A program made the position numbers and the translations under genes. A model generated the notes under the pieces. The model was not told the DNA's origin. It worked only from the letters and a program-made list of their open reading frames with translations, and did not search any database. This document shows positions 4,608-32,392 of a stretch of 64,000 bases of DNA, in pieces. Source of the stretch: Methylobacillus gramineus. GTDB lineage: Bacteria > Pseudomonadota > Gammaproteobacteria > Burkholderiales > Methylophilaceae. The stretch spans positions 558,001 to 622,000 of the forward strand of contig NZ_JAJAVE010000003.1 of assembly GCF_020532675.1 (NCBI RefSeq). Reading direction: 5' to 3'. How positions within the stretch are numbered: position 1 is the first letter of the stretch; each line of letters opens with the position of its first letter.

Positions 4608-4611
4608 ATTT

Positions 4612-8110: not shown

Positions 8111-8132
8111 GCTTGTAGCAGGAGTAAAAGAA

Positions 8133-16547: not shown

Positions 16548-16566
16548 TTGTTTCTTACTTTCAGCC

Positions 16567-16600: not shown

Positions 16601-16625
16601 GGAAAACGCTACATGAGCAGAGTTT

Positions 16626-17804
16626 CTATATTATCTTGGCGCTGGATTTCTGTGCTTGGTAGAGCTTGTATATACCGCTCATGCTGATGCTGACAAATAA
16701 GCCAAATGCGACAATGATGTAGTTTATCTCGATATCTGCCTTGACCATCACGGTGTAAATGCTGATCAGTGCAGCAATGCCCAGATTCTCGTTGAAGTTC
16801 TGTACGGCAATTGAGTGGCCCGCCCCGATGAGTTGGTGTCCACGATGTTGCAGTAATGCATTTAGAGGTACCACTAAGTAACCGCTCAAGGCCCCAATCA
16901 ACAGCAGCAGTACGCATGCCAGAATCCAGTTAGTGATAAAGATCATGCTGATCACGAGTACACCCACGACAATGCCGACAGGTAATACCTTGACTGACTC
17001 TTCCAGCTTGATCATCCTTGCAGCGGCAATCGAGCCGAAGGCAATGCCGATGGCGACGACCACCATCATATAGGTGGATTGTTCTTGATTAAAATTTAGC
17101 GCAAAGCCCGCCCATGCCAGTACGACAAAGCGCAGGGTGGCAGCGACGCCCCAGAATAAGGTCGTGACCGCTAGTGAAACCCGCCCTTGAGCATCTTTCC
17201 ATAAGGCCTTGAATGAGTGCCAGAAGTCTGAAATCAGGTAAATAGGATTCTTCTTGGTCAGTTTGTGATCAATCGGTACCTTGGGAATATAGATGTTGAA
17301 GATAGCTGCCAACATATAGAACGCAGTAATGACGATCATCGCCACTTGTATGTTGATGCCAGGCAGTATGGCGCCAATGACAGTGCCAAGCACAATCGCC
17401 ATGACGGTTGATCCTTCCATCCAGCCATTGGCTTTCACCAGCATTTCCTGAGGCAGGTACTCTGTCAGAATGCCGTACTTGGCGGGTGAGTAAGCTGCCG
17501 CGCCTATGCCGACAATACCGTAGGCAAATAGTGGCGGCATGCCAAACACCATGGCAGTGCTACCGACAAATTTGATGGCATTGGATACGAACATCACTCT
17601 GCCTTTGGGGAAGGCATCGGCAAAGGACCCGACAAAAGGGGCTAGGATGATATAGGAGATGACAAAGAACCATTGCAGCAGGGGATCATGCCAGCTTGGT
17701 GCCTCCATGTCCCTGAGCAAGGCGATTGCAGTGAACAGCAATGCATTGTCGGCTAGCGCTGACAAAAACTGCGCTAGCAGTATGATATAGAAACCCGGAT
17801 TCAT
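16626..17804 (-). CDS. lplT: Lysophospholipid transporter LplT (major facilitator family)
   Basis: The protein has 392 residues and twelve predicted membrane segments. Family marks are MNPGFYIILLAQFLSALADNALLF at the N-terminus (Asp19-Asn20 in the first helix), SFADAFPKGRVMF in the first loop, YSPAKYGILTEYLP, and VVPLNALLQHRGH. It flips lysophospholipids across the inner membrane for re-acylation. In E. coli it is paired with the acyltransferase Aas, which is absent here. It follows the PhoH gene on the same strand with a 92-base gap. Confidence 0.93.
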   Translation of the reverse strand: MNPGFYIILLAQFLSALADNALLFTAIALLRDMEAPSWHDPLLQWFFVISYIILAPFVGSFADAFPKGRVMFVSNAIKFVGSTAMVFGMPPLFAYGIVGIGAAAYSPAKYGILTEYLPQEMLVKANGWMEGSTVMAIVLGTVIGAILPGINIQVAMIVITAFYMLAAIFNIYIPKVPIDHKLTKKNPIYLISDFWHSFKALWKDAQGRVSLAVTTLFWGVAATLRFVVLAWAGFALNFNQEQSTYMMVVVAIGIAFGSIAAARMIKLEESVKVLPVGIVVGVLVISMIFITNWILACVLLLLIGALSGYLVVPLNALLQHRGHQLIGAGHSIAVQNFNENLGIAALISIYTVMVKADIEINYIIVAFGLFVSISMSGIYKLYQAQKSSAKII

Positions 17805-17896
17805 CGCTGCCTTGTCACACCAGGAAGTACATGGTGTTTTTTCATCCTGTTTTTGTAGCTGGCAACGCCAGTGCTTGTCATTCTAATCTTCAATTG

Positions 17897-19297
17897 TTAC
17901 AGAATATCTGCTGCAAAATCAGCCAGTCTGGAGCGCTCACCGCGTACCAGTGTGACATGGCCGTTATGCGTCCAGCCTTTAAATCGATCCACCACATAGG
18001 TCAGACCTGAACTGCCTTCTGTCAGGTAAGGCGTATCAATTTGCGCAATATTACCTAAACAAACTACTTTAGTCCCAGGGCCTGCACGCGTAATCAATGT
18101 CTTCATTTGTTTTGGCGTCAAATTCTGAGCTTCATCAATGATGAGGAATTTATGTAGGAAAGTCCGGCCACGCATGAAGTTCAATGATTTTATCTTGATC
18201 CGTGTCCGAATCAGATCCTGAGTGGCGGCTCTTCCCCACTCACCCGCTTCTTCATCAGACTTATTCAGAACGTCGAGATTATCCTCCAATGCGCCCATCC
18301 ATGGGGCCATTTTTTCTTCCTCAGTGCCTGGCAGGAAGCCAATGTCCTCTCCAACTGGCACAGTCACCCGGGTCATGATGATTTCACTATAGATTTTCTT
18401 ATCCAGCGTTTGAGTCAACGCGGATGCCAGCGTCAGTAGTGTCTTGCCAGTACCAGCCTGGCCAAGCAGGGTGACGAAATCGACTTCCGGGTCCATCAAG
18501 AGGTTGAGCGCAAAGTTCTGCTCACGGTTGCGCGCCGTAATCCCCCATATATTATGCTTGGCCTGGGTGTAATCCTTGACTACTTCGAGCACGGCACTGT
18601 TACCCTCAGTCGATCTCACAATCGCATGAAAGGGTTTCTCGAACTCATAATAGACAAACTCGTTGATCAGGAAGCTTTTACAGAGCGGCCCGTTAATACG
18701 GTAAAACATACGGCCTGCATCCTGCCAGGACTCCAGGGCCTTGCTGTGTTTGTCCCAGAAATCTGCAGGCAGTTCCTTCATGCCGCTATAGAGCAGGTCA
18801 GTATCTTCCAGCACCTGGTCGTTGAAGTAGTCTTCAGCCGCAACGCCGATAGCCCTGGCCTTGATGCGGATATTGATGTCCTTGCTGACCAGTACCACTT
18901 CCCGGTGAGGTTGCGAGGTATGCAGTTCCAGCACGACGCTGAGTATCTGATTGTCGGCCTTGCTGCCTGCCAGCATGGGTAACTCTGCGGTAACCGCAGC
19001 GGTTTGCAGGAACAGTTTGCCACTCACATGTTTATTGCTGTTAATCGAAAGCGGACAGCCTTCTTCAAGACTGGAAAGATTGGTGCCGACAATTTCTTCC
19101 AGGTTACGGCTTGCCTGACGTGCATTACGCGCTACTTCGGTCATGCCTTTCTTGTTGTTGTCCAGTTCTTCCAATGTCACCATCGGGAGATAAATGTCAT
19201 GCTCCTCAAATCTGAACAAGCTTGAGGGGTCATGCATCAGAACATTCGTGTCGAGTACAAACAGTTTGGTGCTTGCAGTAGTAAGCTTTTTGATCAT
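17897..19297 (-). CDS. PIN-PhoH fusion ATPase (PhoH2 type)
   Basis: The protein has 466 residues. The N-terminal PIN nuclease domain (about 10-150) starts with KLFVLDTNVLMHDPSSLF and includes Asp/Glu residues of the metal site (VTLEELDNNKKG, VSKDINIRIKA). The C-terminal PhoH ATPase (about 245-466) has Walker A (LLGQAGTGKTLL), VPVGEDIGFLPG and Walker B (FLIIDEAQNLTP). Such proteins have been shown to be RNA helicase/nucleases in some bacteria. It starts 15 bases after the peroxiredoxin gene, so the two are likely one transcript. Confidence 0.93.
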   Translation of the reverse strand: MIKKLTTASTKLFVLDTNVLMHDPSSLFRFEEHDIYLPMVTLEELDNNKKGMTEVARNARQASRNLEEIVGTNLSSLEEGCPLSINSNKHVSGKLFLQTAAVTAELPMLAGSKADNQILSVVLELHTSQPHREVVLVSKDINIRIKARAIGVAAEDYFNDQVLEDTDLLYSGMKELPADFWDKHSKALESWQDAGRMFYRINGPLCKSFLINEFVYYEFEKPFHAIVRSTEGNSAVLEVVKDYTQAKHNIWGITARNREQNFALNLLMDPEVDFVTLLGQAGTGKTLLTLASALTQTLDKKIYSEIIMTRVTVPVGEDIGFLPGTEEEKMAPWMGALEDNLDVLNKSDEEAGEWGRAATQDLIRTRIKIKSLNFMRGRTFLHKFLIIDEAQNLTPKQMKTLITRAGPGTKVVCLGNIAQIDTPYLTEGSSGLTYVVDRFKGWTHNGHVTLVRGERSRLADFAADIL

Positions 19298-19312
19298 CTG
19301 GCAGGTCCCTGG

Positions 19313-19777
19313 TCAAATAGATTGAATAAACTCGAGCACTTCCTGGGCGTGGCCGTCCACTTTTACTTTACGCCACTCATGAACCAGAACGCCTTTCTCG
19401 TTAATGACAAAGGTGCTGCGTTCTATGCCACGTACTTCTTTACCATACATTTTCTTCATTTTGATTACGTCAAACAGCGTACAGGCTTTTTCCTCTGTAT
19501 CTGCTAGCAACTCGAAAGGGAATGTGAATTTGGCCTTGAAGTTTTCATGGGATTTGAGGCTGTCGCGTGAAATGCCGACGACTTCTGCGTTGTTGGTCTG
19601 GAGGGCAGGATAAAGATCACGTAAGTCTTTACCCTGATTGGTGCAGCCTGGCGTGTTATCTTTTGGATAGAAATAAATCACCAGTTTTTTGCCAATATAC
19701 TCGGAAAGCCTAAAAATTTTCCCGCTGGTGGAAGGGAGTTCAAAATCTGGAATAACTTGATTAAGCATAATGGACAT
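19313..19777 (-). CDS. bcp: Peroxiredoxin, Bcp/PrxQ family
   Basis: The protein has 154 residues. The ATG at 19777 is used; another ATG at 19768 and a GTG at 19795 are possible, and none has a clear ribosome site. The thioredoxin-like fold has LVIYFYPKDNTPGCTNQGKDLRD, with the peroxidatic Cys in PGCT. The resolving Cys found five residues later in E. coli Bcp is replaced (Gly-Lys here). A Cys in EEKACTLFDV is placed like the alternative resolving Cys of other PrxQ enzymes. It reduces peroxides with thioredoxin. It overlaps nothing and leads into the PhoH gene. Confidence 0.92.
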   Translation of the reverse strand: MSIMLNQVIPDFELPSTSGKIFRLSEYIGKKLVIYFYPKDNTPGCTNQGKDLRDLYPALQTNNAEVVGISRDSLKSHENFKAKFTFPFELLADTEEKACTLFDVIKMKKMYGKEVRGIERSTFVINEKGVLVHEWRKVKVDGHAQEVLEFIQSI

Positions 19778-19854
19778 TAAACAGTAGACACCCACATTGT
19801 TGATAAAAAAAACCGTTAAAGCAAGCGGGTTATGTGGGGTATATGCATTAAAAC

Positions 19855-21324
19855 TCAGCTTTTCTGGTGATTGCGCGGTAGTAACAGCTCGGTTGAGGTG
19901 CCGGTTGGGATGCGGGAGTTGAAATGAATACTGCCTGATAATGCTTCAAAGACTTTGAAGGCGAAGGGAATGCCAAGTCCGGTACCAAATCTTTTGGTAG
20001 TGGGGCCTGGGCTGATGGCATGCGGGTCTGGGGTGAATGGCATCCCAGGGCCCTGATCATATATCACAAGCTGGATTGTCTCTTCTGATAAGTGGATGTG
20101 CAGTTCGATGGTGGTATGGAAAGGTGATGCCTCTACCGCGTTGAGCAATAAGTTGTATAAGGCTTGCTCCAGGAGGTTTTCATCAGTAAACATGCGGTCA
20201 TCTTCATCCTCCCAATCAGGCAGAATGAAGTGCAATGATCGTTCTTGAATTTTTTCCTGTAATGGAACGAGCGCCCCTTGTAGTATTTGCCTTAAGCTTG
20301 TGTGGCTGGGTTGTGGTTTGAGGGGGTGTAGATACGCTAATAGGGCACGCGTCCAGCGATCAAGTCGGTCTACCGTGCTGATAATGGCTTTGAGCGAATC
20401 CCGTGTTTCCTGATCCAGCTCGTTGCTGTCTGCTACCTGGGCTGTAGCACGAATGCTGGCAAGTGGGTTGCGGATATTATGCGCAAGCATAGGCACTAAC
20501 AGGCCCAATGCAGCTTGTTTCTCTGAACGAACCAGCGCTTCCTGGCTGTGCGTCAGCTCTTCAGCCATACGATTGATGGATTGTGACAGCGTTGCCAGTT
20601 CGGCCACGCCTTCTTCTGGCGCTTTGTAGTTCAGGTTGCCTGCGCTGATTTCACTGGTTGCGTGCAGCACGCCACGGATTGGACGTACGATGGCGCGGTT
20701 GAGGAAAATGCGGGAGAACACCAACAACAGTAATGCCAGTCCAATGGGCACCATCAGCAAGGTAATTGATGTGCTTTTAGCTTCCTCCAGCCGGGAGGAT
20801 AGCTCGCGCTGTTTAAGTAATAACAAGCGTTCTGCTCGCGCTGAAATAATTTCGTAACGATGGAAAATGCCTGATTCAAGATGGGTGTTCAGTGTTTTTT
20901 CAAGCGCCTCATCGCTATATTCTTGTGGCCGGTTAAAGAAGCGCTGTGTTTCTATGACAAATGCCTGATAGCTGTTCTGTAGATCCAGAATGGCAGACTT
21001 TTCCTCCTGATCTACCGTCAACTCAAGTAGTTTTTTGAAATGCACACCGATGGACTGGGTATAGACGTTGTATTCCTCCTGCGCATGTGGGTCCTTGAGG
21101 AAGTACATATCAAAAAGCTCTTTCATCTGGCGATACAGATCGCCGCGCGTTTGCTGAATTTCCTGCACCATCAAATTGATGCGTTGCGACTCCTGCGAGG
21201 ATTGATCCCATAATCGCATGCCAATCACACCTGCAGTCCCGGCCAGCACGACGAGCAAAATAAATGTCAGTTCATGGATCAGCAATACGTCTTTTAAGGA
21301 TTTGGAACGTGGTGGTTGGCTCAT
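19855..21324 (-). CDS. Orphan membrane sensor histidine kinase
   Basis: The protein has 489 residues. The first membrane segment is about 14-36, followed by a roughly 150-residue mostly helical periplasmic sensor and a second segment about 186-208. A HAMP domain runs to about 260, and the phosphoacceptor is His282 in AHNIRNPLASI. The ATPase domain carries the N box (ALYNLLLNAVEAS), G1 (DQGPGM) and G2 (GTGLGIPF). There is no receiver domain and no response regulator next to it. Its start overlaps the stop of the upstream TonB gene by four bases (ATGA), so the two are translated together, an unusual pairing. The signal and target are unknown. Confidence 0.92.
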   Translation of the reverse strand: MSQPPRSKSLKDVLLIHELTFILLVVLAGTAGVIGMRLWDQSSQESQRINLMVQEIQQTRGDLYRQMKELFDMYFLKDPHAQEEYNVYTQSIGVHFKKLLELTVDQEEKSAILDLQNSYQAFVIETQRFFNRPQEYSDEALEKTLNTHLESGIFHRYEIISARAERLLLLKQRELSSRLEEAKSTSITLLMVPIGLALLLLVFSRIFLNRAIVRPIRGVLHATSEISAGNLNYKAPEEGVAELATLSQSINRMAEELTHSQEALVRSEKQAALGLLVPMLAHNIRNPLASIRATAQVADSNELDQETRDSLKAIISTVDRLDRWTRALLAYLHPLKPQPSHTSLRQILQGALVPLQEKIQERSLHFILPDWEDEDDRMFTDENLLEQALYNLLLNAVEASPFHTTIELHIHLSEETIQLVIYDQGPGMPFTPDPHAISPGPTTKRFGTGLGIPFAFKVFEALSGSIHFNSRIPTGTSTELLLPRNHQKS

Positions 21325-22118
21325 GACTCTTCCAGGCTGAAGGGGATGGGCACCAAGATGTTGAGTATCTTTCCTCGCAATGCCTCTGGAGGGGCTGGCA
21401 GTGGGGAGGCCTTCTTGACCATGGTGAGCGCTTGCTCATCCAGCACTTTATGCCCACTGGACTTCTGGATTCTGCTGGAAATCACATTGCCATTGCCGTC
21501 ACTTTGTACCTCAACGATGACTTCTCCCTGCCAGCCACGCATCTGCGCGATTTTGGGATATTGCTTGTACTTGGAAATGGCCTTCGCCAGCATGCTGCCA
21601 TAAAGATTACGCGCCGCATCCATGTCCTGCTGGCTAGGTCCTTGCACTTGCACAGGGGGAGCTGGCGGAGGTGGTGTTGGCGTTGGCGTAGTTTGCACTG
21701 GTGCGACATGTTCTTTGGGGGCTACCGACATGACCTCAGGGGCAGGGGTAGCCGGTGGTGCGCTGTCTGTGGATTCCGTTGGCTTGCTTGGTGTTACTTC
21801 TTCCACCATTTTTTGGATGGGTTTTGTGACCTGAGGGACGGCGGTAGGTTTCGGTGGTGGTTTTACTGGCTCAGGTGGTTTGATGGGCTCAGGTTCGGCT
21901 GTCTTTGTTGGTTCTGGTTCTGCCACTGGTGTCGGGGCGGCAGTGGATGGTGGCGCAGGAGCCAGCTCTACCGTTAACACGGGTGGTGGTTCATCGTCCG
22001 TAAAATCGAAAGCGGGTAGTTGCAAGACAAGAATCGCATGCAATGCCAAGGAGCCAATAATAGCCCAAACCAGCGTTTGATCTTTACTAGGCAATGGGAG
22101 TGAAGTAGAAGCCAACAT
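21321..22118 (-). CDS. tonB: TonB-family energy transducer
   Basis: The protein has 265 residues. There is a single N-terminal membrane anchor (LVWAIIGSLALHAILVLQLP, with the Ser and His typical of the ExbB-contact helix), then a roughly 110-residue Pro/Glu/Lys/Thr-rich spacer. The C-terminal TonB domain (about 175-263) includes YPKIAQMRGWQGEVIVEVQSD and ALTMVKKASPLPAPPE. It spans the periplasm to energise outer-membrane receptors. No exbB or exbD genes are nearby, so it must use those from elsewhere. It is coupled to the histidine kinase gene, and the block of quinoprotein-associated genes with a TonB receptor begins just upstream. Confidence 0.92.
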   Translation of the reverse strand: MLASTSLPLPSKDQTLVWAIIGSLALHAILVLQLPAFDFTDDEPPPVLTVELAPAPPSTAAPTPVAEPEPTKTAEPEPIKPPEPVKPPPKPTAVPQVTKPIQKMVEEVTPSKPTESTDSAPPATPAPEVMSVAPKEHVAPVQTTPTPTPPPPAPPVQVQGPSQQDMDAARNLYGSMLAKAISKYKQYPKIAQMRGWQGEVIVEVQSDGNGNVISSRIQKSSGHKVLDEQALTMVKKASPLPAPPEALRGKILNILVPIPFSLEES

Positions 22119-22206
22119 GGGGGTTCATTAAGTTTTTATGCTGCTTATTATGCGGGATCGCTGAATTATTGGGCTATGTAGCGGTAAACATTTTCTGCAT
22201 CGTTGC

Positions 22207-23181
22207 CTATTCCCATTCCAGTACAGGATAGATCAGGTTCACATTGCGACGGTTAACTGAATTGAACAGCAGCCATTTATCTCGCTCCTGCCCGGCAGCA
22301 GATTGCATTGCCTGCTCCATGGTGCCGCCTTTTTTGATGGATGCCCTGACGTCATTCAGGAGCAGGTCAAGGTAACGATATTCATTGTCTAGTGCAGTAA
22401 TAAAGCTTGTAGTGGCGGGGCCGTGACCAGGAATGGCGATATTCACACCAGGTAATTGCTTCAGCTTGTTGATGGTCGCCAGCCAGCCCTTGATATCACC
22501 ATCAATAGAGGGTGTCCGGTCAATAAATAGCAGGTCGCCAGTCCAGAGGGTGCCGGTTTGTTCATCGAAAACGGTAAGATCGGTATTGGTGTGAGCGCTA
22601 GGATAGGCGGTGAGTACCAATGTTCTGTTGCCGAGATCAATCACCTGGGAAGTGTCTACCGTGATGCTTGGTTTCACTATCTCACTGCCTGCAAAGGCTT
22701 GTTTCAGCAAATTGTTCCCCTGGCGCATATAGGCTTCCTGCCTGAGCGTCATGGCATTGCCCAGCTTGCTATGGCCAATAAATGCGGCTTTGTCATTGAG
22801 GAATGCGGCATTGCCAAAAATATGATCGGGATGAATGTGTGTATTGATCACATAGAGGACTGGCAATTTTGTCACGGCAGCGATGGCTTGGCGCAACTCA
22901 CTGCCAAGCTGGTAGCTGCCACCCGTATCAATGACAGCCACCCCCTTGCTGCCGATGATAAAGCCGATATTGCTGATATCACCGTGGTAGCCATCATCAA
23001 GGTCCTCATGCACACCTTGGTGCACATACACCCCTGAAGCCACTTCTTTTATGGACAGGTTTTCTGCAAATGCCAGGGGCGCTAACATCAAGCTCAAGCT
23101 GATGATGACCCAGCCTGCTGTGCTTCTGCAAGCTGTGGTCAGTACACTGCGGGAACAATCAACAGCTGAAGCAGGTATCAT
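22207..23181 (-). CDS. Quinoprotein-relay-type zinc metallohydrolase (metallo-beta-lactamase fold)
   Basis: The protein has about 324 residues from the ATG at 23181. An in-frame ATG at 23268 is an alternative and neither has a clear ribosome site. A hydrophobic export segment (WVIISLSLMLAPLAFAENL) is present. The metallo-beta-lactamase fold is shown by VAVIDTGGSYQLG, the metal motif THIHPDH (HxHxDH), AYPSAHTNTDL, LWTGDLLFIDRTPS and AIPGHG. Exported members of this subgroup occur beside SoxYZ-like carriers in PQQ-enzyme genomes and are annotated as quinoprotein relay hydrolases; the reaction is not known. It is divergent from the beta-propeller gene, and the SoxYZ-like carrier follows 1.9 kb away. 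Confidence 0.85.
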   Translation of the reverse strand: MIPASAVDCSRSVLTTACRSTAGWVIISLSLMLAPLAFAENLSIKEVASGVYVHQGVHEDLDDGYHGDISNIGFIIGSKGVAVIDTGGSYQLGSELRQAIAAVTKLPVLYVINTHIHPDHIFGNAAFLNDKAAFIGHSKLGNAMTLRQEAYMRQGNNLLKQAFAGSEIVKPSITVDTSQVIDLGNRTLVLTAYPSAHTNTDLTVFDEQTGTLWTGDLLFIDRTPSIDGDIKGWLATINKLKQLPGVNIAIPGHGPATTSFITALDNEYRYLDLLLNDVRASIKKGGTMEQAMQSAAGQERDKWLLFNSVNRRNVNLIYPVLEWE

Positions 23182-23333
23182 GGGAGCGTTGGCTTGATCT
23201 ATGGTAAAGACACATGTTAAATGCCTGTATACCAATCTGTAAATATCAGATGGAACTTGAGCAGTCATCGAGCGTCTGAAACAATGCGTTATAAAAACGA
23301 TTAGAATGAGTTTGTAAGAACATGGAGAACGTT

Positions 23334-24287
23334 ATGCAATGCAAATTTGAGTTAAAGCTCTTGGCGGCTTCTGCTGCTTTATTGTTTTCAGGTTCACTGC
23401 TGGCAGCCCCTTTTGCCTATTCGACCAATGAGAAATCGGGGACGGTATCCATTATCGATACCCAAACAGACCAGGTGGTTGGCAGTTTCAAGGCAGGCCA
23501 GAAACCACGTGGCGCGGCAATTACCAATGATGGAAAATACCTGTTTGTCAGTGACCAGAAGCAGAATGCCCTGCTGGTGATTGATCTGGCCAAGAAGTCC
23601 ATCTCCGATACAATCAAGCTGGATGAGTCTCCTGAAGGCGTGGGCATTTCTCATGATGGCAAGTGGATTTCTGCTGCCAATGAGGAAGACAACACAGTTT
23701 CAGTGATTGATACTACAACGCACAAAGTCAGCTACAAGGTCAAAATGCAGGGCAAAAACCCAGAGCATGCCGAATTCAGTCCTGATGGTAAGTGGATGTA
23801 CGTGAGTGCTGAAGAAGCCAAATATGTGGATGTGGTGGATCTGTCCAAACGCGCTTCTATCAAGCTGGTTGAGGTGGGGGAGCGTCCACGCGGCATTGGT
23901 TTCCTGCCTGATAGTTCCAGAGCCTATGTGGCCAATGAAGCTGCTGGTACCGTTTCCGTGTTTGATACCAGCAAGCATGAAGTGATTGCGACCATTAGCG
24001 TTGGCACACGCTCCAATGGAGTTAAAGTGCTGCCTAATGGCAAGAAGGTCTATATTTCTAATGGTGGCGACGGCACATTGTCCGTGATTGATACTGCCAC
24101 CAATAAGGTCACTGCCACTATTCCGGTGGGTAAGCGTCCCTGGAATATGGATGTCACTCCTGATGGCAAGAAACTCTATGTTGCCAACGGCAAGTCTAAC
24201 TCAGTATCCGTGATTGATACCGAGACTGACAAGGCGATTAAGGAAGTGACTGTCGGTGATACACCATGGGGTGTGTTCGTACACTAG
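23334..24287 (+). CDS. Periplasmic YVTN beta-propeller protein, PQQ-associated type
   Basis: The protein has 317 residues. The ATG at 23334 has GGAG upstream and begins a signal peptide ending LLAAPF; the longer frame at 23322 is less likely. Seven repeats of about 42 residues follow the pattern GTVSVIDTxTxKVxxTIxVGxxPxGxxxxPDGKxxYVAN, for example NTVSVIDTTTHKVSY, GTLSVIDTATNKVTA and NSVSVIDTETDKAIK. That is a full seven-bladed propeller. Proteins of this kind sit in quinoprotein and lanthanide-linked loci of methylotrophs, with no proven biochemical role. Cytochrome b561 follows 86 bases downstream on the same strand. Confidence 0.9.
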   Translation: MQCKFELKLLAASAALLFSGSLLAAPFAYSTNEKSGTVSIIDTQTDQVVGSFKAGQKPRGAAITNDGKYLFVSDQKQNALLVIDLAKKSISDTIKLDESPEGVGISHDGKWISAANEEDNTVSVIDTTTHKVSYKVKMQGKNPEHAEFSPDGKWMYVSAEEAKYVDVVDLSKRASIKLVEVGERPRGIGFLPDSSRAYVANEAAGTVSVFDTSKHEVIATISVGTRSNGVKVLPNGKKVYISNGGDGTLSVIDTATNKVTATIPVGKRPWNMDVTPDGKKLYVANGKSNSVSVIDTETDKAIKEVTVGDTPWGVFVH

Positions 24288-24373
24288 AGTAGACCTACAT
24301 GCCGGCATTGCGTGGATATGATGTGCAGGATAGCTGCGCTGTCTGTCGGCATGTTCGATTGGCTGGATAAGAG

Positions 24374-24976
24374 ATGAATAACGCTGTTTCAAGATATGGC
24401 AAGGTTGCCATTACCCTGCACTGGCTGGTTGGTTTGGGCATTATTATCTTGTTTGGTCTGGGCTGGTACATGAATGAGTTGCCCAAAGGCGGCCCCAAGG
24501 TCATGAGTTTTGATATGTTTGATCTTGGTCTGTTTACCTGGCACCTCACAGAAGCGGTATCGCCACGTACCTTCTATTTCAACCTGCATAAATCTATTGG
24601 TCTGACGGTTTTCTTCCTGATTGGATTACGCGTTTACTGGAGATTGACGCATCAACCTCCAGCATTGCAAGCCTCTTTGCAGCGCTGGGAGAGGATAGTG
24701 GCCCACGGGACGCATCACTTGCTTTATCTGCTGATGGTATTGATGCCAGTGACCGGTATGTTGACCACGCTTTATAGCAAGTACGGTTTGACCTGGTTTT
24801 CCATTCCTGTCTTACCCGGGCTGGATGAACCGGGCTTGCGTGACTTCTTTGTGGCAGCGCATGAACTCACTGCTACGGTGCTGTTCCTGCTCATTAGCCT
24901 GCATATTGCCGCTGCCCTCAAGCATCAGTTTCTTGACAGGGACGACACCATGAAGCGCATGTCGTTTTTTAAATGA
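24374..24976 (+). CDS. Cytochrome b561-type membrane protein
   Basis: The protein has 200 residues and four membrane segments. Likely haem-ligand His residues lie in VAITLHWLVGLG, YFNLHKSIGLTVF, HGTHHLLYLLMVLMP and LLISLHIAAALKHQF, matching the YodB/CybB family that carries electrons between quinol and a periplasmic partner. The sequence RYGKVAITLHWL is the family start, and AAHELTATVLFLL precedes the last helix. It follows the beta-propeller gene and converges on the SoxYZ-like gene. In this setting it could feed electrons to or from the relay proteins, which is inference. Confidence 0.92.
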   Translation: MNNAVSRYGKVAITLHWLVGLGIIILFGLGWYMNELPKGGPKVMSFDMFDLGLFTWHLTEAVSPRTFYFNLHKSIGLTVFFLIGLRVYWRLTHQPPALQASLQRWERIVAHGTHHLLYLLMVLMPVTGMLTTLYSKYGLTWFSIPVLPGLDEPGLRDFFVAAHELTATVLFLLISLHIAAALKHQFLDRDDTMKRMSFFK

Positions 24977-24992
24977 CTCATGCCCGAGGTTG

Positions 24993-25028
24993 AATAAAAA
25001 AAGGACGCTGATGCGTCCTTTTTTTATT
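24993..25028. terminator. Bidirectional terminator
   Basis: A perfect 16-bp inverted repeat (AATAAAAAAAGGACGC and its complement) with loop TGAT has T runs on both strands. It separates cytochrome b561 from the convergent SoxYZ-like gene. Confidence 0.95.
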
Positions 25029-25036
25029 CCCGCCAG

Positions 25037-25840
25037 TTATTCGACGGCGAGTGTATGCGCAAACTTTCCTTCTTCATTATCGTGTGCTTTCACTTCAAGC
25101 TTGCCTGGGGCTGGTGGTACAAAGTCAAAGCGCAAATAAGGGTCTTCGCTGGTGCCTACCCCGAAGTCGACATCCAGTACGGGTTTACCATCATAGGTGA
25201 AAGTCGCTTTTTGTATATAAAAGGCGGGGCGGAAACCTTGTGACACCAGGTCTCGCTGTAGGCCGGTAAACATCGGGTGTTTGATGATGAATGTGGTCGT
25301 GGTGGCTTGGTTGAAGGTCACGGGTGTTTCGACATTCAGCTTGATTTTACCTGCAGCTGCCAATACCGCCTGATCGTCGCCATCGACTGCGCCGCCACAG
25401 CCTCCGGAAGCCCGGATTGGGATTGCTGTCGTAAAGAGTTTTCCATCTGCTGTTTCACCAACTGCGTGAATGAACGAGTCCGTTTCAAGCCGGATGCGTG
25501 TGGACAGGGTCAATTTCCCCAGCAGTTCTGACAGGTGGTAAGTGGCTGCAAGCTGGATTGGATTGGCGTCCACGATGATATAAACAGACTTGATTGCGTC
25601 AGCAGCACTCTGCGGTCTGTCTATCGTCAGCGTGATAGGCACTTGTGCGCCACTTTCTGCCCGCTTAGGCCCTGACAGGGTAATGAAATCAGCTTCTTCT
25701 ATATTGCGTTTGGGGAAGAAGCCCTCTTTGATCACAGGCCAGATGTCAGGTGAAGCCTCAGCCCAGGCGCTACCGCCTGTAATGGTAAAGATAATGGCTG
25801 CGAGGGAAATAATGATGTTGCTATGTAAGCCTGTGTTCAT
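25037..25840 (-). CDS. SoxYZ-like fused carrier protein of quinoprotein loci
   Basis: The protein has 267 residues. GGAGAAGAG precedes the start and a signal peptide ends GGSAWAEAS. The N-terminal half (about 30-150) resembles SoxY and ends in the carrier motif SGGCGG with Cys148, the only cysteine. The C-terminal half (about 165-267) resembles SoxZ (IKHPMFTGLQRD, FVPPAPGKLEVKAHDNE). In SoxY the terminal GGCGG Cys carries sulfur intermediates covalently; here it lies mid-chain between the fused domains. Fusions like this are known only from genomes with PQQ alcohol dehydrogenases, with an unknown cargo. A TonB receptor gene lies upstream on the same strand. Confidence 0.92.
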   Translation of the reverse strand: MNTGLHSNIIISLAAIIFTITGGSAWAEASPDIWPVIKEGFFPKRNIEEADFITLSGPKRAESGAQVPITLTIDRPQSAADAIKSVYIIVDANPIQLAATYHLSELLGKLTLSTRIRLETDSFIHAVGETADGKLFTTAIPIRASGGCGGAVDGDDQAVLAAAGKIKLNVETPVTFNQATTTTFIIKHPMFTGLQRDLVSQGFRPAFYIQKATFTYDGKPVLDVDFGVGTSEDPYLRFDFVPPAPGKLEVKAHDNEEGKFAHTLAVE

Positions 25841-25897
25841 ATGCTCTTCTCCATATATGACTCGATTTTTTATTATTTTGATTAAGCATACAACAAA

Positions 25898-25943
25898 CCA
25901 GGGGTTTACTACACAGCGATGATCGCTGGTAATAAACCCCTGG
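25898..25943. terminator. Nested inverted repeat between SoxYZ-like gene and PqqU-like receptor
   Basis: The outer arms CCAGGGGTTTA/TAAACCCCTGG enclose inner arms CAGCGAT/ATCGCTG. Reading on the minus strand it follows the receptor stop by 18 bases and should form a strong terminator or RNA-stabilising hairpin. No long T run follows, so partial read-through into the SoxYZ-like gene is possible. Confidence 0.6.
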
Positions 25944-25960
25944 AAGAGAGAATATGAAGA

Positions 25961-28066
25961 TTAGAATATATAGGTTGCGTTCAGGCCCATCAGCCAGTTC
26001 CGACCTGCACTTGGTTCATAGAAGCGATTATTCCCATCATTCACTCGGATTGAGCCTATATATTCCTTGTCGAATATATTTTCTACCCGAACATATTCGC
26101 TGAGACGCCAGTTTTGCAGCTTTTGCTGGAAGCCGGCACGAATGTTAAAGATGGTGTAAGAGTCTGCAGTATCAGTATTCACGTCATTGACGTATACCTT
26201 GCTGTTATGGCGAGCTTCAAAAGCCGTGCTGAATCCAGTTGTTTGATGTTTCCATGCAATCTCACCATATATCTGGCTTTTATAGGTGCCAGGTAAACGA
26301 TTGCCGGATTCAATGGTGTTATTTAATGCATTTGTATAAGTAGAGTCGAATTTTGCATTTAATAAGGTGTATGAGCCGAATAGGGAAAGATTATTAGCAA
26401 ATTTGGATTCAATGGAAAGCTCAGCACCATTGCGTTTAGTCTTGTTTGCATTTGTGTAGCTGACATTTCCAGCATTGTTTCCTTGTACTACGATTTCATC
26501 GTCAGTATGTATATTAAACCAGGTTAGATTTGCAACGGTGTTGTTACCTATGAATGCTTTTGTGCCAATTTCAAAATTGCGGCTCTCACTAGGTTTCAGA
26601 CCAAGGTTGGGGCCTGAAACTGGATTCACTGTTGCATATGCAGCTTCTGCAAAAGTTGGTGTTTCGAAGCCTTTCCCGTAGTTGGTGTATACGTTCCAGC
26701 TTGGTGTAATTTTCCAAACAGCACCAATAACGGGTGTGGTTTTTTCGTAAGTGACGTTACCACTTTTATCGATACCCCCAGATAATAGATTGTCATCAAC
26801 CTCTAGTTTAACTTTGGTGCGGCGGGCACCCAAGTGGAGGTCGAGGTTATCTAGTACAGACCATTGAGCCTGAATGTATTTGTCGGAGTTGGTCGCGATG
26901 TTTTCTTCATCTCGATTTAATATGCCAGTTTTGATACCGCCGGTAGCGTTGATATCTAAACGATCATCCCTCATCTTGCCGTATGTGAGTCCTATGCTGA
27001 TATTGTATGGTTTGCTGAAAAGCTCGCCTTTATTGTTCCAGCGAAGATCTGTACCCCAGAATTCACGATCAATAGAGCTCGCGCGTCCAAGAGCATTAAA
27101 TTGGTTAATCGAGAGATATTGTTCGTTTTTACGAGTACCTACATATGAAATCAGATTGATCGAGTTATTGTCATTAATCTTATGTTCAAGATTGAAGCCC
27201 ACTTGTGTTTGACTACGAGATACGCGTGTGTCAGCGCGTAATGCGCTAGGGGCTGCTTGTTTGCGGTCAGCTCGTACCTCACTCCTGTTAAGACCTAGGG
27301 GATCATCCGCTTCTTGATCAAACCAGTTAATCAATGTGGTGAGTTTGGTGTCCTCATTTAGATTGAAGCGGAATTTGGCTGTGCCTTGTTCTTTTTTATT
27401 ACTACTGTGATCGCGGTAGCCATCTGAGGAATAATTTGAATAGTTTATTAGGTATTCAAGACCGTCTGCAGTACCTGCTGCCCGTACATTTTCACGACGA
27501 GTGTTATAGCTGCCGAATAAAACACCACCCGATAACTCATGACCTTGCGGTGCATTCTCTGTCAGTAACTGAACCACGCCACCAGATGAGTTGCCGTACA
27601 GGGTGGAGAATGGGCCACGCATGACTTCTATACCTTGCATAACACCAAGGTCAACGCTGCCAGGTTGACCACTGCCATCTGGATAGGTTAGTGGAATGCC
27701 ATCCACATAAACGCGAACGCCGCGAACGCCAAATGCAGAGCGCGCACCAAACCCACGTGTGGAAATTTGGGGATCCTGAGACATTTGTGTGCGGTTTTGT
27801 GCGGTGATGCCTGGCACGCGGATGAGGCTTTCTGACAGTGTCATCTGGGCCTGTCCATCCTGGATTTGATCTTTGGTAACAACATCAATCGCGACTGGCA
27901 GGTCAAAGCTTCTTTGCGCTGCCCGTGTCGCTGTCACGACCACTGGGGATACCACCTGCAAGGATTCTTTGCTATCGGCCTCTTCCGCCAAGACAGGGTT
28001 TGAAGTCCCCCAGACACTTAATACAGCGAGCGGAATGAGTTTGAGTGAATACGATTTTCTTTGCAT
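25961..28066 (-). CDS. TonB-dependent receptor closely resembling E. coli PqqU (YncD)
   Basis: The protein has 701 residues. AGGGGA precedes the start, a signal peptide ends NPVLAEE and a TonB box-like SPVVVTATR follows. The plug contains TLSESLIRVPGITAQNR, STRGFGARSAFGVRGVRVYV, DGIPLTYPDGSGQ and MRGPFSTLYGNSSGGV, and the barrel ends with NIFDKEYIGSIRVND and RFYEPSAGRNW. These segments match E. coli YncD (NLSESLTGVPGLQVQNR, RGFGSRSTYGIRGIRLYVDG, NLFDKEYVGSVIVNE, RYYEPSPGRN), which has been reported as the outer-membrane PQQ receptor PqqU. In a PQQ-using methylotroph, next to quinoprotein relay genes, PQQ recapture or uptake of a related ligand is plausible. The ligand is inferred. Confidence 0.88.
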   Translation of the reverse strand: MQRKSYSLKLIPLAVLSVWGTSNPVLAEEADSKESLQVVSPVVVTATRAAQRSFDLPVAIDVVTKDQIQDGQAQMTLSESLIRVPGITAQNRTQMSQDPQISTRGFGARSAFGVRGVRVYVDGIPLTYPDGSGQPGSVDLGVMQGIEVMRGPFSTLYGNSSGGVVQLLTENAPQGHELSGGVLFGSYNTRRENVRAAGTADGLEYLINYSNYSSDGYRDHSSNKKEQGTAKFRFNLNEDTKLTTLINWFDQEADDPLGLNRSEVRADRKQAAPSALRADTRVSRSQTQVGFNLEHKINDNNSINLISYVGTRKNEQYLSINQFNALGRASSIDREFWGTDLRWNNKGELFSKPYNISIGLTYGKMRDDRLDINATGGIKTGILNRDEENIATNSDKYIQAQWSVLDNLDLHLGARRTKVKLEVDDNLLSGGIDKSGNVTYEKTTPVIGAVWKITPSWNVYTNYGKGFETPTFAEAAYATVNPVSGPNLGLKPSESRNFEIGTKAFIGNNTVANLTWFNIHTDDEIVVQGNNAGNVSYTNANKTKRNGAELSIESKFANNLSLFGSYTLLNAKFDSTYTNALNNTIESGNRLPGTYKSQIYGEIAWKHQTTGFSTAFEARHNSKVYVNDVNTDTADSYTIFNIRAGFQQKLQNWRLSEYVRVENIFDKEYIGSIRVNDGNNRFYEPSAGRNWLMGLNATYIF

Positions 28067-28174
28067 GGTGTTTTCCCCTGAATGCTGCTATTAAATTTTA
28101 ATGCGGCGAGCTTATGGGAAAGTCTTGCGCTTGACCATCAAGATAATCATTAATTTGGGGCGGGAAGCCCGATT

Positions 28175-29182
28175 TTATTGCGTATCAGGGGAAATATACC
28201 GCGGGTTTTGTATCATTGCGTCCAAAAAATCCTTGGTCGGTAGGTGAGGCAATAATCCCTTGCTGCTTATCACGATGCTGGCACTGGCACAGCCTGCCTG
28301 TAGTGCTTGTGCAATTGATTGTCCGGATAAAAGCTTATATATAAACGCACTGGCAAATGCATCCCCGGCGCCTATGCTATCGATCACCTGCGTTTGAAAT
28401 GCTGGGTGGATTATAGTCTGGCCGTTTTCCAGCCAGGCGATGACTCCCTGGCATCCCAGGGTGATCACCATGCTTTTGCCGGGATATGCATCCTTGTTAG
28501 ATACCTTTGCAAGAAATGCTTTTGCGCTATCTGCAGTATTAAAGATGCTGGGCTCTGTCTGAAAGAATGCCGCGGCCTCCGTTTGATTCATGATGAGCAC
28601 GTCAGTCGATGCCAGTAATTCGGGTGTAATCGCATGGAATGGTGAAGGGTTAAGAATGGTCAGGCGGCCTGCGTGTTTGGCGATGCTGAATGCGGTGGCA
28701 ATTGTAGATTCAGGGATTTCAAATGAGGCATAGGTAATGCCTGCCTGTGCTATACGGGATGCCCGGGCTCTGATATGGCTGGTATCCAGTAGCGCGTTGG
28801 CGCCAGCGTAGAGGGTAATGTTGTTCTGCCCGCTGTTGTCTATCAGGGCTACACCGTTGCCGTTATATTCTCCCAATTCAAGCAATTCCGGTGATGTCAG
28901 CGCCCAGTCATCCAGTGTCTGCTGATACTGCGAACGAGCGGCTGACGTGTTACCTACAGGAATGATGCCATCTACACTAATACCTAGTTTGTGCAGCCCG
29001 ATTAATACATTGAGGCCTTTGCCACCAGTCTCGCAATGGAAGCTGTCTGCGGCCAGAGACTCACCTGGGAATGGAAAGCGCCTGACGAAGAAAATGTGGG
29101 CAATCATCAGGCTGCCCAGTACAAACACTGAGGGTATCTGGTGCGAATATTGAGAGCGCTGTTGAGTAAAGTGTGCCAGCAT
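28175..29182 (-). CDS. PfkB-family sugar kinase (ribokinase-like)
   Basis: The protein has 335 residues and is cytoplasmic. PfkB signatures are CETGGKGLNVLIGLHKLG near residue 50 and the C-terminal DSIGAGDAFASAF near 270, whose Asp is the catalytic base. NPSPFHAITPELLASTDVLIMNQTEA is the typical central strand-helix region. It phosphorylates a sugar or nucleoside-like hydroxyl; the substrate cannot be told from sequence. It starts 24 bases after the GntR-type regulator gene, so the regulator and kinase are probably co-transcribed and the regulator may sense the kinase substrate or product. Confidence 0.88.
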   Translation of the reverse strand: MLAHFTQQRSQYSHQIPSVFVLGSLMIAHIFFVRRFPFPGESLAADSFHCETGGKGLNVLIGLHKLGISVDGIIPVGNTSAARSQYQQTLDDWALTSPELLELGEYNGNGVALIDNSGQNNITLYAGANALLDTSHIRARASRIAQAGITYASFEIPESTIATAFSIAKHAGRLTILNPSPFHAITPELLASTDVLIMNQTEAAAFFQTEPSIFNTADSAKAFLAKVSNKDAYPGKSMVITLGCQGVIAWLENGQTIIHPAFQTQVIDSIGAGDAFASAFIYKLLSGQSIAQALQAGCASASIVISSKGLLPHLPTKDFLDAMIQNPRYISPDTQ

Positions 29183-29206
29183 GCGTATCTGCTTTCAGTG
29201 CAGGCC

Positions 29207-29974
29207 TTAGCCTTTCATTTTGACCCGATAGGCATACGCATCGCCACGGAATGTGCCTTCAACGTACTCCAATAAAATACCTTCCTGCGAATAACTGCGT
29301 CGCTTGATTAGCAAGCAAGGTTGCGAGGCGGTAAAACCAAATGCCTGATTTTCGATTGGGTTAGATAAGACCGCTTCTACGGTTTGCTCGCACCAATCCA
29401 GGGAGTGTTTGCAGTGCTGTTGGATGGCTTGGTAAATCGACTCGCTTAAATCGATGGTTTGTAGCTCGGGCAAATGATGCAGGTTGTACCAGGCGATTTC
29501 GTGCGATAGCGGTTTCTCATTGCCATAGCGGATGCGTTCAATTTTGAGCAATGAAGCGTTCGAGTTCAGCCCAAACATGGAGGCCATGCCTCTATCCTGA
29601 ATCACGGATTGTTCCAGGATTTTTGACGAAGGCGTCATACCCAGCTCGTGCATTTCCTGAGTGAAACCTCGGAGCTTGAACATGTGTGTATCCAGCCGGC
29701 CTGGTGTTAATACTGTGGTGCCACCCTTGCGGTTACTGGTGATCAGCTTGCGGTTACGCAGCTCCATATAGCTGCGTTTGATCGTGATTTTGCTGACGTT
29801 CAATGCCTCCGAAAATGCTGTTTCGGTCGGTAAAAGCGTCCCTGGCTTTAACTCGTTATTGAGAATGAGCGTTTCCAGTTGCTGGAATAGCTGGGCGTAG
29901 AGAGGTTCCGGCGCATCTTTGTGCAATGTAACCAGACTGGTGATACACGCCGTGTTTTCTTCTAGTTTTTTCAA
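29207..29974 (-). CDS. GntR/HutC-family transcriptional regulator
   Basis: The protein has 255 residues from a TTG at 29974 with AAAGGT upstream; no ATG occurs before the DNA-binding domain. The winged helix (about 15-85) contains PLYAQLFQQLETLI, LKPGTLLPTETAFSEALNVSKITIKRSY and GGTTVLTPG. The effector domain (about 95-250) is of UTRA type (LLKIERIRYGNEKPLSHEIAWY, LIKRRSYSQEGILLEYVEGTFRGDAY), which binds phosphosugars or similar ligands. It precedes the PfkB kinase gene and lies divergent from the LGFP-repeat gene, so it could control both. Confidence 0.9.
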   Translation of the reverse strand: MKKLEENTACITSLVTLHKDAPEPLYAQLFQQLETLILNNELKPGTLLPTETAFSEALNVSKITIKRSYMELRNRKLITSNRKGGTTVLTPGRLDTHMFKLRGFTQEMHELGMTPSSKILEQSVIQDRGMASMFGLNSNASLLKIERIRYGNEKPLSHEIAWYNLHHLPELQTIDLSESIYQAIQQHCKHSLDWCEQTVEAVLSNPIENQAFGFTASQPCLLIKRRSYSQEGILLEYVEGTFRGDAYAYRVKMKG

Positions 29975-30110
29975 AAAATCAGACCTTTGTCATTCGGTGG
30001 TAATGCATTGAAATCCATCGGCATCTTAACGTTCTGGGCTAGGAGCGACAACCCATGATGAAAAATAGGCCCAAACCAGAACGGGGTAGATATTATGTTG
30101 GATGTATTTT

Positions 30111-30137
30111 AGGTATATTTATAAAATAAAGGTATAT
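30111..30137 (+). promoter_or_regulatory. Direct repeat in the GntR/LGFP divergent region
   Basis: AGGTATAT occurs at 30111-30118 and 30130-30137, 19 bases apart, about 45-70 bases before the LGFP gene start, in AT-rich sequence. It may be a regulator site or part of a promoter. The evidence is weak. Confidence 0.25.
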
Positions 30138-30178
30138 GATTATTGGTGTGTTGATATCAATTATTCAGAAGGTGGATC

Positions 30179-31090
30179 ATGGCAAAGATTGAGCTTGATG
30201 TTAATGAGTTGGGCAGCAGGCTTGGTGGCTGGCGTGTTAAAGATGGCACCGCAGCCGAATATAAAAGTGCAGGGAGCCATTACCTTACTTATGCACCGAT
30301 GATATCAAGCCCGATTGGAGGCGGTTTGCAGTTGATGGCAAGCATTGATCACATCATTAGCATCGAGAAAACAGATCATTGCCAGCTCCATATGCATTTT
30401 GATGCGAGTGGCATCTTGGTGAGTTGGAAAGTCGAGCTTAGTATTCAGGGAGCTTCCAAGTTCGATTCTGGATGGGTTCTAGAGGCTGCTGGTACTGGCA
30501 TGTTTGGGCGCGAGTACGCCGCGACTGCTGCCGTCGCTATAAAAGTCCTGAACACGGTGTCTGGGGTTGTCGCTGGACTGGCCACACATGGTGGTCGTGC
30601 AGTTTTTCCCTCAGTGATCCAAATGAATTTCAATCATATTATTGGATGCATGCGGCGTGAATTCTTGGTGTATGGGGAGATTGCTAGCAAATATGCAGCA
30701 TTGGGTGGGGAGCACGGGTTTCTTGGGCGTCCCTTGACCGATGAAACCGGAACATCTGGTCAGGTTGGTAGATGCCATCATTTTGAAAGTGGATCGATTT
30801 ACTGGACAACAAAAACGGGAGCCTGGGCAGTGCATGGCCCCATTCGCGATAAATGGGCGTCTTTAGGATGGGAGCGTAGCGTACTGGGATATCCCATTGC
30901 TGATGAGCAACAGCGCCCGGAAGGTGGCCGTTTCAGCAGGTTTCAGCATGGAGATATCCACTGGACTCAAGTGCGGGGCGCATGGATTGAGTTATCGAAA
31001 GTTGGCCAGGTAAAAAATCGGCTGAAAGATGCGGCGGCATTAAGTATCACTAATCCGGCAATAGCAGGGTTGGCTAGAAACCTGGGTTAA
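30179..31090 (+). CDS. LGFP-repeat protein with an unrecognised N-terminal domain
   Basis: The protein has 303 residues. GAAGGTGG precedes the start. The first 160 residues match nothing I know and have no signal peptide. Two LGFP repeats follow at about 165-215 and 218-270: KYAALGGEHGFLGRPLTDE with HHFESGSIYWTTKTGAWAVHG, then KWASLGWERSVLGYPIADE with SRFQHGDIHWTQVRGAWIEL. LGFP repeats are known from extracellular and cell-wall-associated proteins of actinobacteria, where they bind the envelope or glycans. Here the protein looks cytoplasmic or exported by an unseen route. It stands alone between the GntR regulator and moeA. Confidence 0.8.
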   Translation: MAKIELDVNELGSRLGGWRVKDGTAAEYKSAGSHYLTYAPMISSPIGGGLQLMASIDHIISIEKTDHCQLHMHFDASGILVSWKVELSIQGASKFDSGWVLEAAGTGMFGREYAATAAVAIKVLNTVSGVVAGLATHGGRAVFPSVIQMNFNHIIGCMRREFLVYGEIASKYAALGGEHGFLGRPLTDETGTSGQVGRCHHFESGSIYWTTKTGAWAVHGPIRDKWASLGWERSVLGYPIADEQQRPEGGRFSRFQHGDIHWTQVRGAWIELSKVGQVKNRLKDAAALSITNPAIAGLARNLG

Positions 31091-31132
31091 TCTACATGAG
31101 TTCCACTGATGAATGATTAGCCATGGGGTGTC

Positions 31133-32392
31133 TTAAATAATGCCTTCAAGCACTTGGACGTTGACAGTGCTGCCTGCCTGCACATTACCCACCGCCTCAT
31201 CGAGTACGATAAAACAATTGGCCTCAGACATCGAGCGCAATATCCCAGAACCCTGGTTGCTGGTAGGCCGGACTCGCCAAATGCCATTCCTATCGGGATA
31301 CAGGATGCCACGTTGAAACTCTGTACGCCCGGGAAGTTTGCGGATATCTTCTGTGCACACCATCTGAAGCAGGGGCTGTACTTGTAGATGGGTCTGTCCC
31401 ATCATGTATAGCAGGGCATCTCTTACGAACTGATAAAACGTCACCATGACAGATACAGGATTGCCAGGCAGGCCGAAGTAATGGGCATTGCCCACTTTGC
31501 CATACGCCAGTGGTCGGCCGGGTTTCATGGCAATTTTCCAGAACACTACCTGGCCTAGCTTTTCCAGCAATAGCTTCATGAAGTCGGCTTCGCCCACCGA
31601 AACACCGCCACTGGTGATGACCACGTCAGCCTGCTGTGAAGCATCAAGTAGTGTCTGCTCCAAAAGCTGTGGATCATCTGCTACTACTCCCATATCCAGA
31701 ATCTCGATATTCAGTCTGCTCAGCATACTGTGCAGGGTGTAGCGATTGCTGTCGTATATCTCTCCTTCTTCCAAAGGTTGGCCAATGCTGACCAGTTCAT
31801 CCCCGGTAGAAAAGAACGCCACGCGTAGTTTGCGATACACCGTGACTTCCCCTATGCCCAACGAGGCAATCAGGCCAATGTCAGACGGCCTGAGTGAGCG
31901 GCCTTGGGGCAAGACGATTTGTCCCTGTTGCAGGTCTTCCCCGGCATGGCGAACGTTGGCACCCGCTTTGGGTACCTCCGTCATGACCATTTGATCGTTT
32001 AGAGTCTGTGTATGTTCCTGCATCACCACAGTGTCTGTGCCTGCAGGGATGACTGCCCCGGTCATGATGCGTATACATTCTCCCGCTTGAACAACCCCGT
32101 CAAACGGCTTGCCAGCAAAAGCGGTACCGACGATTCTCAATGCGGTGGCGGCTGTATCATGGCTATGAAACGCATAACCATCCATGGCGGAGTTGTTGTG
32201 ATTCGGCACATTGGAGGGAGATAAAATGTCGCCTTCGAGGATGCGTCCCAATGCTTGCTTGAGCGGCAGGGTCTCTGTTGCTGTCAGCCGGGTCAGATAG
32301 TCACGGATAAAATGCCGGGCTTGTGTGACCGGCATGGAATTTGGGTCGTAGTCATCCTGACAGCTGATGTCAGACAAGTTTTTTGTAGTCAT
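31133..32392 (-). CDS. moeA: Molybdopterin molybdenumtransferase MoeA
   Basis: The protein has 419 residues from the ATG at 32392, whose ATGA overlaps the mobB stop; an ATG at 32413 also exists. MoeA inserts molybdate into adenylylated molybdopterin in the cytoplasm. Visible signatures are NNSAMDGYAFHSHD, the GAVIPAGTDTVVMQE loop, VAFFSTGDELV, GEIYDSNRYTL, TSGGVSVGEADF, KIAMKPGRPLAYG and FGLPGNPVSVMVTF, in the usual domain order. It is the last gene of the moaA-mobA-mobB-moeA row, all on the minus strand. Confidence 0.96.
   Translation of the reverse strand: MTTKNLSDISCQDDYDPNSMPVTQARHFIRDYLTRLTATETLPLKQALGRILEGDILSPSNVPNHNNSAMDGYAFHSHDTAATALRIVGTAFAGKPFDGVVQAGECIRIMTGAVIPAGTDTVVMQEHTQTLNDQMVMTEVPKAGANVRHAGEDLQQGQIVLPQGRSLRPSDIGLIASLGIGEVTVYRKLRVAFFSTGDELVSIGQPLEEGEIYDSNRYTLHSMLSRLNIEILDMGVVADDPQLLEQTLLDASQQADVVITSGGVSVGEADFMKLLLEKLGQVVFWKIAMKPGRPLAYGKVGNAHYFGLPGNPVSVMVTFYQFVRDALLYMMGQTHLQVQPLLQMVCTEDIRKLPGRTEFQRGILYPDRNGIWRVRPTSNQGSGILRSMSEANCFIVLDEAVGNVQAGSTVNVQVLEGII

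Follow-up and report, generated by a model that had tools for sequence, protein, structure and literature searches.

A PqqU-lineage TonB-dependent receptor near xoxF in a methanol-eating bacterium that makes pyrroloquinoline quinone and probably also retakes it

According to a study of the E. coli receptor PqqU by Munder and others, most bacteria known to import pyrroloquinoline quinone (PQQ) are not producers of the cofactor; the study defines a PQQ signature of Y, F or W at position 99 together with R304 and R365, and its authors do not require K274 and R536 (PMC12124388). A SoxYZ-like carrier and a SoxH-like hydrolase are described near PQQ or lanthanide dehydrogenase genes in the ped cluster of P. 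putida (PP_2677/PP_2678) and at META1p1703-1705 of M. extorquens (PMC12997753), and in M. extorquens AM1 the lut cluster, which includes LutH, is described as holding a TonB receptor and exported proteins tied to XoxF biology (PMC7391723). We analyzed a stretch of 64,000 nucleotides from Methylobacillus gramineus (contig NZ_JAJAVE010000003.1, positions 558,001 to 622,000; hereafter the window) that recalls each of these systems. A block of five genes at 22207-28066 encodes a PqqU-lineage TonB-dependent receptor, a SoxY-SoxZ fusion, a cytochrome b561, a beta-propeller protein and a SoxH-like zinc metallohydrolase, and it shares the window with xoxF, xoxJ and xoxG-like genes, which lie about 9 kb from the hydrolase. 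The genome measures 3.05 Mb, and its closest named relatives are Methylobacillus species.

We propose, with a probability that we put at roughly 60%, that a long neighbourhood of xoxF in Methylophilaceae ends with this block on the receptor side, that the PqqU-type receptor of the block imports self-made PQQ, and that the SoxYZ set beside it is a separate one. On this sequence evidence, a methanol-eating bacterium that makes PQQ probably also takes it back. Because of its lineage and pocket residues, the receptor would import PQQ over the outer membrane, driven by TonB, and PQQ lost by the producing cell would be returned to the periplasm, the presumed site of XoxF assembly. The simplest account has two sets in one neighbourhood, a receptor for PQQ retrieval and the known quinoprotein accessory set, which comprises SoxYZ, the hydrolase and perhaps b561.

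The earlier note on this DNA had matched the plug and C-terminus of the receptor to E. coli PqqU (YncD); the match extends over the full length (39.5% identity, 650 aligned residues). Among solved structures, the PqqU entries 6v81 and 9c4o, the latter with PQQ, scored 471.7 and 469.9 bits against 94.3 for FecA; among families, the NCBI PqqU family NF041535 scored 569.8 bits and the next, a siderophore subfamily, 199.8. The published signature is present as F112, R312 and R369 (PqqU 99, 304 and 365). With Q97, Q134, Q316 and Y477 at PqqU 84, 121, 308 and 481, the receptor retains Q84, Q121, R304, Q308, R365 and Y481 of the E. coli protein, and it keeps an aromatic residue at 99, where Y becomes F. 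It differs in having V282 for K274, N534 for R536, L for Q310 and A for N477. An AlphaFold model of the receptor (mean predicted local distance difference test score, pLDDT, 86.7) found 9c4o as its best match (template modelling score, TM, 0.94 by target length); because FecA and others also match the model well, we take the predicted fold alone as weak evidence for PqqU identity. We also compared eight further receptors of this genome, out of its 57 other PF00593 matches: none carries the signature triad, and the receptor of the block stood apart from all eight in a tree that omitted the relative L054 and in which the E. coli PqqU and outgroup rows were flagged as long branches. Together, sequence, residues, predicted fold and tree support a receptor of the PqqU kind, a kinship now better supported than in the earlier note. 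Because the NF041535 cut-off is not reached, we term it PqqU-lineage and not an NCBI equivalog.

In the PqqU-PQQ structure, K274 sits where the PQQ of a dehydrogenase binds its metal; K274E impairs E. coli PqqU, and glutamate at 274 has been proposed to permit co-transport of metal (PMC12124388). We tallied the pocket sites in 45 Methylophilaceae receptors from the 93 receptor genomes of the family (duplicates L037, L038, L041 and L058 and the truncated L074 left out, L054 partial). F99 is present in 44/44, R304 in 45/45 and R365 in 45/45; at position 274, 43 have V, one has A and one has L. R536 is missing from 14 of these receptors, of which 11 belong to the xoxF-side block. Among 75 receptors from beyond the family (25 from the class and 50 of 92 order places, being the 30 best-scoring and 20 hand-picked lower ones), position 274 is K in 52, E in 12, Q in 8, R in 1 and V in 2. 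K274V is a pocket variant that goes unmentioned in the passages of PMC12124388 on this position, which name E and R. In a tree of 58 rows, including 20 of the 45 family rows, the V/A/L274 receptors form one group (support 100/99; 100% of 200 bootstrap trees) that descends from inside the K274 PqqU receptors, in a 49-row clade that holds E. coli PqqU; the root was placed at the midpoint, and 16 rows had an unusual letter make-up. The two outside V274 rows (G425 and G551), which belong to the same order, fall within the V group. These two receptors (L186 and L187) come from two other families of the order and have neither the block nor an xoxF match in the stretches examined. On our reading, the change from K274 to valine may reflect an altered form of the ligand.

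At E <= 1e-60, the receptor was found in 93 of 150 Methylophilaceae genomes. pqqC was matched in all 93 (two of them under the family cut-off) and in 143 of the 150 overall, and the seven genomes without pqqC are also without the receptor. Because every receptor genome matches pqqC, we find recovery of self-made PQQ, perhaps carrying a metal, a better fit than scavenging; a Methylovorus strain with a high PQQ yield (MP688, about 125 mg/L; PMC3257108) also backs retrieval. The presence of pqqC in all receptor genomes raises the question of why a producer would re-import its own cofactor. PMC12124388 reports PQQ biosynthesis genes in 23% of PqqU owners and, in four Burkholderiales genomes, a pqqU that adjoins pqq genes; these four may overlap our genus 13, where two genomes have less than 4 kb between receptor and pqqC. 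None of the other receptor genomes (93 in all) has pqqC closer than 30 kb. Within genus 13, a 1.3 Mb relative (L053, 6025-12546) has a pqq cluster, a major facilitator superfamily (MFS) transporter gene and a PqqU-type receptor gene consecutively on one strand (pqqC by family search, the other pqq names by inspection), an arrangement that looks as if it were for PQQ export and return. The receptor of another relative (L054, G084) is split in two as read.

Whereas E. coli K-12 pqqU adjoins yncE, the receptor gene here lies near the xoxF group, which the earlier note had overlooked, in a host with pqqC. The xoxF product has XoxF 6oc5 as its best Protein Data Bank match (680 bits, against 628 for the best calcium-type methanol dehydrogenase), and we take the extra Asp of its DYD motif (Table 1) to be a lanthanide mark of XoxF. 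Between the block and the xoxF group lie tonB, the kinase gene, bcp, phoH and one gene each for an MFS protein and an oxidoreductase. Relatives outside the genus share the neighbourhood, and in many Methylophilaceae receptor and block are syntenic with xoxF. SoxYZ was matched in 144 of the 150 family genomes (122 over the cut-off) and the hydrolase, at E <= 1e-50, in 129; of the 93 receptor genomes, at least 28, from at least 13 genera, have SoxYZ no more than 12 kb from the receptor, 28 have the hydrolase no more than 25 kb away, and at least 26 have both. Among the 28 genomes with the hydrolase near the receptor, at least 13 have a TIGR03075 dehydrogenase nearby (called by distance; two that were reread, L153 and L154, show xoxF) and 11 more have an xoxF match (4 of them at contig ends), with G055, G064, G072 and G075 outside the set checked for xoxF. 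The gene tonB adjoins the hydrolase in block loci reaching that far, and the sensor kinase-tonB pair is kept in many, the kinase going unmatched in L061 and L067-L069; the genes scanned around the pair included none recognisable as a response regulator. SoxYZ is absent from the block in two Methylobacillus loci (L010, L040), with no remnant at E 1e-3. Across the class, PqqU co-occurs with an unbroken SoxYZ fusion (9/24 against 20/251 genomes; one-sided Fisher p = 2e-4, from hand-read counts that exclude M. gramineus and SoxYZ matches with internal stops, that is, separate soxY and soxZ, and that are uncorrected for kinship). One genome (G384) of the 24 others with the receptor has both on one contig, about 10 kb apart, a count from which draft contigs may hide some cases. 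Titles and abstract openings in the literature gave no published link between PqqU and xoxF in Methylophilaceae.

The earlier note read the remaining genes of the block as an exported zinc metallohydrolase with an HxHxDH motif, a seven-repeat YVTN propeller, a cytochrome b561 and a SoxY-SoxZ fusion with its sole cysteine in GGCGG. These identifications stand (Table 1): each of the five corresponds to an open reading frame at its listed position, tonB lies past the hydrolase, and the family matches, judged on sequence, are far beyond chance. The propeller has seven units of the 'VSVIDT' type, spaced 42 or 43 residues apart; TIGR02276 repeats are present, and it fails the threshold for the PQQ-associated propeller TIGR03866. 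The SoxYZ cysteine is Cys148, and one cysteine lies within the last 245 residues in 56 of the 57 SoxYZ relatives listed (some of them duplicates). Like the Sox thiosulfate system, the protein has SoxY and SoxZ domains and a single-Cys arm; unlike that system, the two domains are fused here, and a search of the M. gramineus genome gave no SoxB match, on which ground we set a thiosulfate Sox system aside. Compared with the ped and META1p clusters, a PqqU-type receptor and tonB adjoin the set, and the M. gramineus genome gave no CXXCW (TIGR03865) match. Its best match to TIGR03864, the ATPase of the lut/ped lanthanide ATP-binding cassette (ABC) transporter, reached 184.1 bits against a cut-off of 302.25, a further difference from the lut cluster; we take this family to cover LutE. 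A Lut-type system was set aside on the TIGR03864 and CXXCW results.

The pairing of SoxYZ with the hydrolase is also seen beyond the family. At SoxYZ loci outside Methylophilaceae, the hydrolase was found within short flanks in 10 of 29, with the receptor not on that contig; b561 is present in the block of relatives and adjoins the hydrolase in all four unlinked loci read (L149-L152). A second SoxYZ fusion in the M. gramineus genome (C1; L133, 8142-10583) adjoins a small cytochrome c and a flavin adenine dinucleotide (FAD) protein, which, named by inspection, resemble flavocytochrome c sulfide dehydrogenase, and because of these neighbours we favour a sulfur role for the set. PMC12997753 ties SoxYZ and the hydrolase to dehydrogenases with adjacent cysteines and sets out disulfide formation, cofactor stability or shielding of PQQ from sulfur compounds as proposed roles; the role is unsettled in print. 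The XoxF of the window carries such an adjacent pair in its sequence, at 147-148. We suggest that SoxYZ, the SoxH-like hydrolase and b561 make up an accessory set of their own, with a wider distribution, that serves PQQ dehydrogenases and in which the single SoxYZ cysteine would carry a sulfur group, the hydrolase would clear it and b561 would move electrons, so that the XoxF cysteine pair or PQQ might be kept undamaged.

Some results weigh against retrieval of self-made PQQ as the task of this receptor and against its tie to the neighbourhood. Its NF041535 score lies under the NCBI cut-off of 1200 bits, which was reached by no receptor in 150 genomes of the family, 276 of the class and 300 of the order, and which the E. 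coli control does reach. K274 and R536, both important in E. coli, are replaced. The receptor is absent at E <= 1e-60 from 57 of the 150 family genomes, and because 50 of those have pqqC, it is dispensable. Loci examined from four genera (7, 10, 19 and 22) show it unlinked: in 15 loci (L046-L051, L062-L066, L071-L073 and L076), it adjoins a coaBC-like gene, with a dut-like gene opposite in 14 (names by inspection). Finally, mobA, mobB, moeA, bcp, phoH and an MFS gene are kept in the same stretch at many loci. The conserved stretch is an old shared gene order, and because it also keeps genes without an evident PQQ link, synteny is weak evidence of joint action.

It is possible, although we consider it rather doubtful, that gene order was merely inherited and that the receptor, for PQQ or another ligand, has no working link to xoxF or SoxYZ; such an explanation is compatible with PQQ import. 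It accounts for the conserved mob/moe, phoH, bcp and MFS genes and for retention of the receptor without linkage in four genera. Against it stand the second PQQ link, in genus 13, and the association of PqqU with unbroken SoxYZ across class genomes, itself uncorrected for kinship.

A sharper form of PQQ retrieval, not exclusive with it, is that the receptor imports metal-bound PQQ (with a lanthanide or Ca2+), PQQ acting as a lanthanophore and XoxF receiving a half-built cofactor. Entry of PQQ together with a metal is the most interesting point raised by this locus, although we consider it unlikely. The place of K274 at the PQQ metal and the published proposal for glutamate there both speak for it, as does the clade's loss of lysine 274 with retention of the carboxylate-binding arginines R304 and R365; the receptor gene is near xoxF in the window, PQQ has been suggested as a possible lanthanophore (PMC8969499), and a Lut-type PQQ-ABC ATPase above the cut-off is lacking in the genome. 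By contrast, valine provides no metal ligand, the two V274 receptors outside the family are without an xoxF match in the stretches examined, and V274 may merely tolerate PQQ in another pose. The fuller version, in which a single-origin, Methylophilaceae-centred K274V clade imports metal-carrying PQQ that has been secreted, loaded with lanthanide and retaken near xoxF, giving XoxF a preformed PQQ-metal cofactor, seems to us distinctly unlikely. With the lysine at the PQQ metal site replaced, lanthanide delivery to XoxF becomes directly testable in this group, for which a single receptor and a single point variant would serve.

If the receptor only resembled PqqU and served a siderophore or another metallophore, that would explain the score far below the NCBI PqqU cut-off and the siderophore subfamily as second-best family. 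We consider this reading very unlikely and set it aside on scores, residues and tree: FecA scores far less than PqqU, the three signature residues are found in all 45 Methylophilaceae receptors where readable, and the receptor is nested among K274 PqqU rows, E. coli PqqU included.

Least probable of all, and in our judgment hardly credible, is the earlier note's single dedicated periplasmic system, in which cargo taken up by the receptor passes to the SoxYZ cysteine and is released by the hydrolase, with b561 for redox: its PqqU-kind receptor and conserved neighbourhood held, and linkage of the receptor to SoxYZ and hydrolase, with tonB inside the block, favours it, but release of receptor cargo by carrier and hydrolase found no support, given the two loci without SoxYZ, a propeller confined to two genera, the unlinked receptor of four genera, the SoxYZ-hydrolase pairs without a receptor and the one linked case among other class genomes.

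Table 1. Genes of the window discussed here, with positions counted from its first nucleotide
Feature	Position	Strand	Evidence
SoxH-like zinc metallohydrolase (quinoprotein relay system 2)	22207-23268	-	TIGR04559 396.5 bits (cut-off 280); HIHPDH
Seven-unit YVTN beta-propeller	23322-24287	+	TIGR02276 248.5 bits; TIGR03866 231.4 bits (cut-off 287.3)
Cytochrome b561, membrane b-type cytochrome	24374-24976	+	PF01292 112.4 bits
Quinoprotein-associated SoxY-SoxZ fusion, exported	25037-25840	-	TIGR04557 231.7 bits (cut-off 140); PF13501, PF08770; GGCGG
PqqU-lineage TonB-dependent receptor, K274V variant	25961-28066	-	NF041535 569.8 bits; residues, fold, tree
TonB energy-transducing protein (tonB)	21321-22118	-	TIGR01352 72.1 bits; PF03544
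Sensor histidine kinase	19855-21324	-	HAMP, HisKA, HATPase_c; 4-base overlap with tonB
xoxF, PQQ methanol dehydrogenase	11313-13244	+	TIGR03075 622.2 bits (cut-off 480); Cys pair 147-148; DYD 375-377
xoxJ, quinoprotein-associated periplasmic binding protein	13379-14299	+	TIGR03871 292.6 bits (cut-off 212)
xoxG-like periplasmic c-type cytochrome	14419-14949	+	TIGR03872 80.7 bits, below cut-off 147.8; CTTCH
Fiu-like catecholate siderophore receptor, then PKHD-type Fe2+-dependent dioxygenase	5857-8816	+	NF007349 445.8/686 bits; upstream of xoxF
LGFP-repeat protein (PF08310), between GntR regulator and moeA	30179-31090	+	matched in some Methylobacillus loci only

An Rfam search of 16000-32000 gave zero matches at the gathering score. 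Elsewhere in the M. gramineus genome (C1; L135, 6973-14276), one more PQQ-dehydrogenase gene lies about 3 kb from an additional TonB receptor. Among the blocks examined, the propeller was found only in those of Methylobacillus and Methylovorus (genera 1 and 16). We considered it as a constant partner of PqqU, as yncE adjoins pqqU in E. coli K-12, and rejected this, with one propeller in 75 class and order loci (flanks of about 1-1.5 kb at E 1e-6, which may hide others). That single case (L172 of G563, 3742-4608) is 59% identical to the propeller of the window and adjoins a PqqU receptor with K274, which the tree places close to the V274 clade. A longer stretch beside the V274 receptor of G425 holds a weak propeller match at 25% identity (L206).

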